A stretch of DNA of 7,994 nucleotides from Alloprevotella tannerae (GTDB lineage Bacteria; Bacteroidota; Bacteroidia; Bacteroidales; Bacteroidaceae). The position numbers were made by a program, and so were the translations under genes. The notes under the pieces were generated by a model that was given only the letters and a program-made list of their open reading frames with translations, ran no database searches and had not been told where the DNA came from. Positions 3,143 through 4,651 of the stretch are shown piece after piece (the stretch's first letter is position 1; each line of letters opens with the position of its first letter). Location of the stretch: assembly GCA_015259305.1 (NCBI GenBank), contig JABZGO010000075.1, forward strand, positions 1 through 7,994. Direction: 5' to 3'.

Positions 3143-3847
3143 TTATGGTGCTACCGGCGTATTCTCGTCGAAGCCACGCAGCAGATTGATCGTTCTTTTG
3201 ATGTTATAGTTGCGTCCGTCTGCTCCTTTGGCTTGCAGGTTGAGGTAATAAGCGCCGTCAGGTGCATCGCTGCCTCCGGCGCGGCCGTCCCAACCTCCTT
3301 TGAGGTCTGTCCATTCATAGAGTTTCTTACCCCAGCGATCAAAGATGACGGCTCGAAAAGAGACGATGCTCTGGTAGCCATCCTTTACTTTGAAGACATC
3401 GTTAATGCCATCGCCGTTGGGCGTAAAAGCATTGGGCACTTCCAGTCGAGATTCGGAGATGGTGATCTTAAACGGCTCATCCATACTATATTCTATGGTG
3501 TCCGTGCCTTGCACAAAACTAATCAAAAGACTGACGGTAAACGAACCACTCTCTCGAAAAACGTAGGTCGTATTTTCTTCGTGGCGCAAGAGGAAAGGCT
3601 TTGACTCGCCCACCTTCGTAAAGCGCCATTCATAAAGCGGTGTATAGTTGCCGATTGTCTGCGGATTGGCCGTAAACTCAGCCGTCATCGGCGCATTGCC
3701 TATGTATTCTGAAACTTCCTCGCCGATTGTCTCGCCATACGTCACACGCATTTTCGGCATAGCCGAAGGATTCACGTCATCAGCCTGAGCCGACAGCGCG
3801 AAGAGGGCGAAAAAGCAGCCCAAAAGGGCCGACAACAAACGTCTCAT
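3143..3847 (-). CDS. small secreted protein with PKD-like region and gliding-motility/T9SS-type C-terminal domain
   Basis: From ATG 3847-3845 the protein has 234 residues. Residues 1-22 form a signal peptide (MRRLL, a hydrophobic core, then AQA before DD). Residues about 37-133 are beta-rich and PKD-like (YEWRF near 72, then SGSFTVSLLI). Residues about 137-224 match the gliding motility-associated C-terminal (CHU_C, TIGR04131-type) domain: VPNAFTPNGDGINDVF, IFDRWGKKLYEW, GGWDGR, APDGAYYLNL and a final IKRTINLLRG. Such domains commonly end proteins exported by the type IX secretion system, so an outer-surface or secreted location is likely. The frame extends 12 codons further up, but the promoter's -7 element lies inside that extension, so 3847 is preferred. 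It is the first gene of an apparent operon with uvrA. No enzymatic function can be assigned. Confidence 0.85.
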   Translation of the reverse strand: MRRLLSALLGCFFALFALSAQADDVNPSAMPKMRVTYGETIGEEVSEYIGNAPMTAEFTANPQTIGNYTPLYEWRFTKVGESKPFLLRHEENTTYVFRESGSFTVSLLISFVQGTDTIEYSMDEPFKITISESRLEVPNAFTPNGDGINDVFKVKDGYQSIVSFRAVIFDRWGKKLYEWTDLKGGWDGRAGGSDAPDGAYYLNLQAKGADGRNYNIKRTINLLRGFDENTPVAP

Positions 3848-3863: not shown

Positions 3864-3894
3864 CGAAGATAGTGAAAACTCATATACAGGCAAA
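3864..3894 (-). promoter_or_regulatory. Bacteroidetes-type promoter for the secreted protein-uvrA-ybaK operon
   Basis: Reading the minus strand, TTTG (3894-3891) is followed after 19 nt by TATCTTCG (3871-3864), which matches TAnnTTTG at 7 of 8 positions. Initiation would fall near 3857-3860, only about 10 nt before ATG 3847. The ATG at 3883 lies upstream of the -7 element, so it would not be on this transcript, and that decides the start codon. No Shine-Dalgarno is present. Confidence 0.6.
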
Positions 3895-3960
3895 AACGAA
3901 ATCCAACAAAATATATTGTCTGTGAGCTTATAGCGAGATAAAAGCGAGCAAGGAAAAAGC

Positions 3961-3999
3961 AAAAAAAAGAAAGAGCGCCGACCCTTTAGCCGATGCTCT
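3961..3999 (-). terminator. intrinsic terminator closing a minus-strand transcript from the intergenic region
   Basis: On the minus strand, 3999-3972 folds into a hairpin: AGAGC pairs with GCTCT, then one A-C mismatch, then UCGGC pairs with GUCGG using two wobble pairs, around a six-base loop (TAAAGG). It is followed directly by TTCTTTTTTTT (3971-3961). The T tract exists only on the minus strand, so the direction is clear. No protein gene lies upstream of it on that strand within the window, which points to a non-coding transcript or an attenuator before the gene at 3847. Confidence 0.75.
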
Positions 4000-4145
4000 C
4001 TATCTCAAACCTTTCGAACGTTGTGTTATAATCTCTTTCTGTGTGCCTCCTCGAATGAAGGCGTAAGATGATTGAAGTCTAGTTTAAACGGTTTTCTTCT
4101 TGTGCTGATTAATGGTTAATGCACGTTCCTAATCCGTTTGAGGTT
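3961..4145 (-). ncRNA. candidate structured small RNA, about 185 nt, unknown family
   Basis: Bounded by a consensus promoter (4150-4181) and an intrinsic terminator (3961-3999), both on the minus strand. The predicted RNA of about 185 nt contains no AUG, so it is unlikely to encode a peptide. Its 5' end CUCAAAC (4142-4136) is complementary to GUUUGAG (4010-4004) just before the terminator. Inside that, GAACG (4128-4124) pairs with CGUUC (4020-4016), giving a rod-like fold. Local hairpins are also possible: GUGC/GCAC with an inner AUUAA/UUAAU stem (4124-4102), and GCCUUC/GGAGGC (4062-4045). A size near 185 nt and end-to-end pairing recall 6S RNA, but I do not recognise a conserved 6S central bubble and do not assign it. 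An attenuator leader for the gene at 3847 is the alternative. Not tmRNA, RNase P RNA or SRP RNA by inspection. Confidence 0.55.
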
Positions 4146-4149
4146 ACAG

Positions 4150-4181
4150 CAAAAGTATAGGTTTTCATACTCTTACACAAA
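4150..4181 (-). promoter_or_regulatory. consensus Bacteroidetes promoter for the candidate small RNA
   Basis: On the minus strand, TTTG (4181-4178) is followed after exactly 20 nt by TACTTTTG (4157-4150), a full match to TAnnTTTG. Spacing is the same as at the promoter at 4620-4651. Initiation is expected near 4144-4146, right at the CUCAAAC segment that pairs with the 3' part of the RNA. Confidence 0.7.
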
Positions 4182-4619
4182 TTGATCGCCTCTTTTTGTC
4201 GATTTTAATGTCGAAAATCAACGCTTTTTAGAGCGATTAACAATTACCCTTATGCTTTTGCTTTATCAGCTAAACAAAACTTGCGGCTAATTCATTCTTT
4301 TCGGAAACGCTCTACTTTACGCTTTGTAGCTCTTCGTGTGGAATTTTTTTGTCATTTTCTTTTGCCTTTTCAGGCGATTGTCGGAAGCTGATGTGTCGCG
4401 AGTCTGTTTTTAAATTAACGAGTTGACTGATTTTCCCCCTTTTTGCGCTGCGGCGTCGCTGTTTTGTCTAAAAAATTGCCAATGTATAACGAAAGCGTTT
4501 TGCCCCGATTTTCCGTTTTTCGCATCTGTTGCAAGGTGGGTGGTGCCCGTCTCGTCTTAAATATGCCTCGGCGCAAGTAGCACTACGGGAGGTAATGAGG
4601 CGTTTTTTAAGTGTAGATG
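4182..4619. other. AT-rich intergenic stretch with no recognised gene
   Basis: No coding frame worth reporting is seen on either strand, and base composition is low in GC (about one third in 4201-4320) compared with the genes. Contents noted: an inverted repeat GATTTT/AAAATC with a 7-nt spacer (4201-4219); a short CGCT/AGCG inverted repeat within 4222-4235; a hairpin GCCT-TTTC-AGGC (4365-4376); and a weaker stem followed by T6 (4563-4608, listed separately). It probably serves as the divergent regulatory region between the small RNA and the rightward gene, but no specific operator is identified. Confidence 0.5.
4563..4608 (+). terminator. possible weak stem-loop with T6 on the plus strand
   Basis: GCCTC (4565-4569) is complementary to GAGGC (4597-4601), and the downstream arm runs into TTTTTT (4603-4608). 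The loop is long (27 nt) but contains a small GTAG/CTAC hairpin. It sits just before the promoter of the gene at 4688 and could insulate it from rightward read-through. No convincing plus-strand promoter upstream was found, so this is tentative. Confidence 0.25.
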
Positions 4620-4651
4620 TTTGGAGAAGAGAGGCGGGCTGCTTATTTTTG
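4620..4651 (+). promoter_or_regulatory. consensus Bacteroidetes promoter for the TPR/HTH membrane protein gene
   Basis: TTTG (4620-4623), 20 nt, then TATTTTTG (4644-4651), a full match to TAnnTTTG. Transcription should begin around 4655-4658, leaving a leader of about 30 nt before ATG 4688. The leader has no Shine-Dalgarno, as is usual in this phylum. Confidence 0.7.

Follow-up and report, generated by a model that had tools for sequence, protein, structure and literature searches.

Does the gap between two divergent genes of Alloprevotella tannerae hold an RNA gene of its own? The window, by which we mean the whole 7,994-nt stretch of DNA analysed, carries minus-strand genes for an aminoacyl-tRNA editing domain protein, for uvrA and for a protein with a CHU_C type IX secretion signal domain (the CHU_C gene). 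After the CHU_C gene come a DUF6377/TPR gene on the plus strand and a MatE transporter gene on the minus strand. The candidate interval falls in the gap between the divergent CHU_C (minus) and DUF6377 (plus) genes. It contains promoter-like and terminator-like motifs and no convincing protein frame, and it is conserved in one relative, with substitutions that are compatible with base pairing. The evidence best supports a stand-alone small RNA, intergenic and narrowly distributed, and we consider this reading likely. For the fuller proposal, namely that the A. tannerae lineage has a stand-alone small RNA gene bounded by these promoter-like and terminator-like ends, and that its product of about 183 nt would act in trans on mRNAs, we estimate a probability of roughly 0.5. 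The features are listed in Table 1.

Table 1. Observed motifs and predicted RNA elements in and around the candidate interval (positions in the window)
Feature	Positions	Strand	Basis
Predicted small RNA, about 183 nt	3961..4143	minus	start set 7 nt past the -7 box, end at the T tail; both predicted
Promoter-like motif TTTG-N20-TACTTTTG, Bacteroidetes primary sigma type	4150..4181	minus	exact consensus match
Closing stem, 5ʹ arm CUCAAAC (predicted partner 4010-4004)	4136..4142	minus	consensus structure
Closing stem, 3ʹ arm GUUUGAG	4004..4010	minus	consensus structure
Second stem, 5ʹ arm (predicted partner 4021-4016)	4123..4128	minus	consensus structure
Second stem, 3ʹ arm	4016..4021	minus	consensus structure
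Apical hairpin	4045..4062	minus	consensus structure
Intrinsic-terminator-like hairpin and T tail (stem about 4001-3970, tail 3969-3961)	3961..4001	minus	folding z
Promoter-like element TTTG-N19-TATCTTCG of the CHU_C gene	3864..3894	minus	one consensus mismatch
Promoter-like motif of the divergent DUF6377 gene, at the other edge of the gap	4620..4651	plus	exact match; boxes unchanged in ATCC 51259

The sequence TTTGTGTAAGAGTATGAAAACCTATACTTTTG at 4181-4150 on the minus strand is an exact match to TTTG-N20-TAnnTTTG, at the place where the first-pass annotation had put a promoter of this form. The window has two matches to TTTG-N18-22-TAnnTTTG, with 0.12 expected, and two matches occurred in 0 of 200 shuffles; both are located where a promoter is wanted. 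The closest genome we found is that of A. tannerae ATCC 51259 (locus L001), which is 92.0% identical to the window in one 7,995-column alignment. Between the two sequences, none of the 12 box positions of the candidate promoter has changed, compared with 7 of the 20 spacer positions. A scan for sigma70-type promoters found none, as is expected for the phylum. An intergenic small RNA should have a promoter of its own; at the level of sequence, the candidate has a motif that is present, rare by chance and conserved in its boxes.

At the other end, the hairpin with a T-rich tail that had been noted at 3999-3961 is indeed there, and it folds better than all 500 of its own shuffles (z -3.99); its counterpart in ATCC 51259 has a z-score of -4.97. 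Among the terminator pairs in the two-sequence consensus, one is changed on both sides, three are changed on one side and none is broken. The T tail and the two z-scores together suggest, as far as sequence can, that the candidate also has its own terminator. The region between these signals is free of convincing protein frames. There is no ATG in minus-strand positions 4149-3961, as the first-pass annotation had stated, and the only open reading frames of at least 20 aa that touch minus-strand positions 4181-3961 are two short TTG frames at the edges: one of 23 aa (4180-4109), which begins within the promoter motif, and one of 37 aa (3962-3849), which overlaps only the last two bases of the interval. 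With no ATG and only these short TTG frames at its edges, we reject a coding explanation for the interval.

Could the promoter-like and terminator-like sequences have come together by chance, or be relics in a gap that drifts freely and encodes no functional RNA? Terminator-like sites alone are about as common in the window as in shuffles (three found, 2.2 expected), which is in keeping with this possibility. However, the whole promoter-terminator module is rare when the motifs are altered. As a control, we scanned a single contig of the A. tannerae genome (1.06 Mb), on which genes were called by a simple longest-ORF rule. This contig has 43 intergenic consensus promoters; five patterns that were scrambled or wrongly spaced gave 4, 3, 0, 14 and 4, the figure of 14 being that of the shorter-spacer pattern. 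A terminator is found 3ʹ of 7 of the 43, compared with 1, 0, 0, 2 and 1 in the altered-pattern controls, and the homologue of the candidate locus is one of the seven. The conservation of the promoter boxes next to a changed spacer likewise argues against free drift.

The overall level of conservation is more favourable to a gap without functional RNA. Over 183 aligned columns, the predicted RNA and its ATCC 51259 counterpart differ by 27 substitutions and one gap. This identity of 85% is lower than that of the non-coding gap flanks (mostly 90–100%, about 95%) and lower than that of the whole window. For comparison, the CHU_C protein is 97% identical to its ATCC 51259 counterpart, and the 5ʹ end of the DUF6377 gene goes down to 68% in one 40-column step. 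That the interval has changed more than its flanks speaks against an RNA under strong conservation, and no homologue was found outside A. tannerae. Nonetheless, the substitutions tend to keep pairs, and this argues against the absence of a functional RNA. In the RNAalifold consensus, all eight pairs touched by substitutions stay standard, three of them through a double change; substitutions affect 11 of 88 paired columns and 16 of 95 unpaired columns. Since the consensus is derived from these two sequences, it leans towards both. In a fairer test, the structure is taken from one sequence and the other sequence is compared, over 2000 trials, with substitutions of the same kind placed at random. 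For pairs kept, P was 0.068 when the window structure was applied to ATCC 51259 and 0.007 in the reverse direction; for folding energy, the corresponding values were 0.001 and 0.046. When the terminator was left out, P was 0.040 and 0.011 for pairs kept, and 0.006 and 0.082 for folding energy, so that two of the eight P values are above 0.05. We consider this moderate support for conserved pairing, from one comparison of two sequences, and we think it quite unlikely that the gap encodes no functional RNA.

The predicted RNA also folds better than shuffled sequence (z -3.19 in the window; -5.70 for the homologue, L001:5743-5924), even when the terminator is removed from it (z -2.81 for the body in the window and -3.92 in ATCC 51259). 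In sliding 120-base windows, z-scores on the minus strand are -2.1 to -2.8 in four windows spanning 3960-4259, one of which (4140-4259, z -2.70) is mostly upstream of the predicted RNA; on the plus strand, they lie between -2.01 and +1.69. The strand signal is not clean, because the complement strand in ATCC 51259 also folds well in part (body z -2.32, terminator z -4.61). Inside the outer stems, the two sequences do not share a minimum-energy fold: that of the window is multibranched and that of ATCC 51259 is rod-like. Hence, the predicted anatomy is limited to the closing stem, part of the second stem, the apical hairpin and the terminator. In the consensus, the closing stem has seven pairs, with one changed on one side and none broken; the second stem has six pairs, one of them changed on both sides, from A-U to G-C; and the apical hairpin has six pairs, with one changed on both sides, one changed on one side and none broken.

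Would such an RNA be a free transcript, or part of the mRNA of the adjacent operon? The candidate is on the same strand as the CHU_C gene, its structure is conserved in ATCC 51259, and about 110 bases separate the end of the terminator from the likely CHU_C start codon (3847). These features would suit a cis-acting 5ʹ leader of the CHU_C/uvrA operon, with the hairpin as an attenuator and signal-dependent read-through adding expression. However, a separate promoter-like element of the CHU_C gene is located past the terminator, at 3894-3864, and is retained in ATCC 51259 with one spacer change. This separate element makes a free transcript more probable than a leader. Furthermore, all 12 other relatives with upstream DNA examined (of 22 loci) have a TAnnTTTG box no more than about 300 nt upstream of their CHU_C match, the box being short and counted with no chance control; covariance model R1 finds no such RNA at those CHU_C loci; and no Rfam riboswitch or leader family matches. 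A leader is, in our judgement, unlikely. The longest CHU_C frame begins at 3883, within the gene's own promoter-like element, and it is this position of the element that makes the ATG at 3847 (MRRLLSALLG...) the likelier start codon.

Is the stand-alone RNA a member of a class that has already been described? We searched Rfam 15, including its 6S and Bacteroidales families, with the window and, up to an E-value of 10, with a 261-base stretch, and found no convincing family match; the highest score in the 261-base search, 14.6 bits, was a chance match to a snoRNA on the opposite strand. A scan of the window for tRNA and tmRNA genes gave none. A 6S RNA has been detected together with its pRNAs in Bacteroides thetaiotaomicron, as described by Ryan et al. 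(PMC7366714). Among the 6S-related families, RF01693 (Bacteroidales-1, described in Rfam as a suggested 6S-Bacteroidales RNA) resembles the candidate in that its model of 179 positions is of similar length and it occurs in the same group of organisms. It differs in that the candidate does not match the model and that the RF01693 copy of A. tannerae is elsewhere, at G001:C5:397755-397927 on the minus strand (L090:17755-17927; 106.8 bits). RF00013 and RF01685, like RF01693, gave no match up to an E-value of 10 in the window or the 261-base stretch. Given the lack of a match to these families and the different locus of the RF01693 copy, we reject 6S RNA as the identity of the candidate. Across the genus, RF01693 is found in 48 of 58 genomes at an E-value of 1 or less, and in 45 of 58 over the cut-off. 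Neither RF00013 nor RF01685 was found in the A. tannerae genome (0 of 1 each), and a search for RF01685 in 41 genomes of the family gave two matches, both below the cut-off, one of which proved to be an RF01693 copy. One RNA in these searches, L056:1474-1634 on the minus strand, matches RF01693 (63.8 bits) and, more weakly, the 6S-Flavo family RF01685 (37.4 bits); a common 6S origin of the two families fits, since this RNA matches both. The main text of PMC7160235 mentions neither tannerae nor Alloprevotella. As far as Rfam 15 and our literature searches reach, the candidate is, as originally proposed, undescribed.

How might a small RNA from this locus act? Transcription would run from near 4143, driven by the putative primary-sigma (sigma-ABfr type) promoter, to near 3961. 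In the resulting RNA, CUCAAAC/GUUUGAG would close the body, and the terminator hairpin would follow it. Open segments, for example 4122-4112, which is identical in both sequences, would contact targets, and the product of about 183 nt would act in trans by pairing with messenger RNAs. We infer transcription, both ends, the fold and the trans action; pairing in trans is the action we favour, taking GibS and FopS of B. thetaiotaomicron as analogues. In that species, 9 of 11 tested intergenic small RNA candidates were confirmed by Northern blot, eight of them with a transcription start site and a terminator (PMC7366714). GibS, as described in the same paper, is an intergenic small RNA of 145 nt. 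Like the candidate, it is from the Bacteroidales, is intergenic, has its own promoter (for the candidate, a motif) and an intrinsic terminator, and lacks a protein frame. In contrast to the candidate, with its canonical motif and predicted closed 5ʹ end, GibS has a non-canonical PM2 promoter and is largely unstructured, with an open 5ʹ seed. It is also described as conserved in the genus Bacteroides and as having proven targets, which sets it apart from the candidate, for which no convincing target was found. The FopS small RNAs of B. thetaiotaomicron (PMC11697453) share with the candidate a canonical sigma-ABfr promoter (again, a motif in the candidate) and a terminator hairpin. They are described as about 65–70 nt long, with 14 paralogues and a single-stranded 5ʹ part, whereas the candidate would be about 183 nt long and has one real copy. 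The FopS structure is stated in that paper to have been deposited in Rfam; the window matched none of the Rfam families.

We scanned neighbouring gene starts for pairing, and 885 start regions of one contig with three segments of the predicted RNA, and did not find a convincing mRNA target. At the neighbouring starts, shuffles were equally good in 15 of 40 cases for CHU_C, 38 of 40 for uvrA and 28 of 40 for DUF6377. Among the 885 regions, two segments did worse than shuffles (best score -16.7 for each, compared with shuffled means of -18.8 and -17.4); the third had a best score of -20.9 (C5:500958), slightly better than all eight shuffles (range -20.4 to -15.8). The negative scan for two of three segments and the weak result for the third are consistent with a structured RNA that binds protein rather than mRNAs: an independent RNA whose closed, rod-like body would bind a protein, for example a regulator that it titrates or, in the manner of a second 6S-like RNA, the RNA polymerase. 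The consensus fold, with its closing stem, second stem and apical hairpin, would suit such a role. However, the window sequence is not rod-shaped in its minimum-energy fold, none of the three 6S-related families matches, and A. tannerae has a standard RF01693 RNA elsewhere. We regard protein binding as improbable. An extension of this idea, that the RNA represents a lineage-specific family outside Rfam, with a closed rod body unlike the open seeds of GibS and FopS, that it binds protein, possibly as a second 6S-like RNA, and that it sits at a junction so far observed only in the A. tannerae lineage, is a model that we consider very doubtful.

For the small RNA gene that we favour, how wide is the distribution? 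A DNA search of the 15 genomes from which loci L001-L015 come gave matches in all of them at an E-value of 10 or less, but only the match in the A. tannerae genome, which has one real copy, is real (E-value 6.8e-64); the other matches listed are at most 36 nt long, with E-values of at least 0.03. In 301 genomes of the family, two matched at an E-value of 0.01 or less, A. tannerae itself and a 20-base stretch at the terminator end, and no real DNA homologue was found in the other 300. Covariance model R1, for which E-values are rough and first-look filters may miss distant structural relatives, matched 2 of 58 genus genomes (E-value of 1 or less) and 4 of 251 family genomes (0.1 or less). Apart from A. 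tannerae, these were one 16.8-bit match in the genus, set aside for its scattered alignment, and three weak matches in the family, set aside because they rest mainly on terminator-like hairpins; there was no convincing homologue in the 57 other genus genomes or the 250 other family genomes. At CHU_C loci from 16 sources (the window and 15 of 22 loci), only the window and ATCC 51259 gave real R1 matches (L004 scored 17.6 bits and L006 9.8 bits), and over 24 of 30 loci of DUF6377 relatives, only the A. tannerae locus did (L127 scored 16.4 bits). The candidate had no match in a search of plasmids, and one 25-base pattern had none in viral contigs.

In six of eight DUF6377 relatives, the gene is immediately preceded by another frame on its strand, at least about 1.25 kb long. 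Because these six, in which the upstream region was examined, carry another upstream frame, A. tannerae is the only place where we saw the CHU_C-DUF6377 junction. Among other relatives, the nearest CHU_C protein has 65% identity, so distant homologues may escape our searches. Together, these results partly support the original proposal of an independent structured RNA gene. In its favour are the promoter boxes, terminator and pairing that are kept in ATCC 51259, the folding z-scores and the separate CHU_C element. Conservation extends to one relative, ATCC 51259, with no convincing homologue in the other genomes searched.

What would such an RNA mean? All Bacteroidales small RNAs that we found in literature searches are from B. 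thetaiotaomicron. A bounded candidate in Alloprevotella offers a testable example of a small RNA that is young or evolves fast, and it illustrates how a small RNA gene can be nominated from two genomes by its promoter, its terminator and substitutions that preserve pairing. It overturns no concept.

Two further observations concern the DNA beyond the predicted RNA. The 100 bases just 5ʹ of the promoter motif (4187-4286) are identical in the window and ATCC 51259, compared with 92% for the whole window, and are possibly a regulatory site. They are part of a stretch of ~440 bases between the two divergent promoter motifs (4182-4619) that has no convincing frame and is mostly 90–100% identical to ATCC 51259. 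On the control contig, five of the six other promoter-terminator places were scanned against Rfam; two contain tRNA genes and three have no match. These three, all intergenic (L109, L102 and L120, at G001:C5 near 778662 plus, 634110 minus and 997992 plus, respectively), are possible further small RNAs of A. tannerae.
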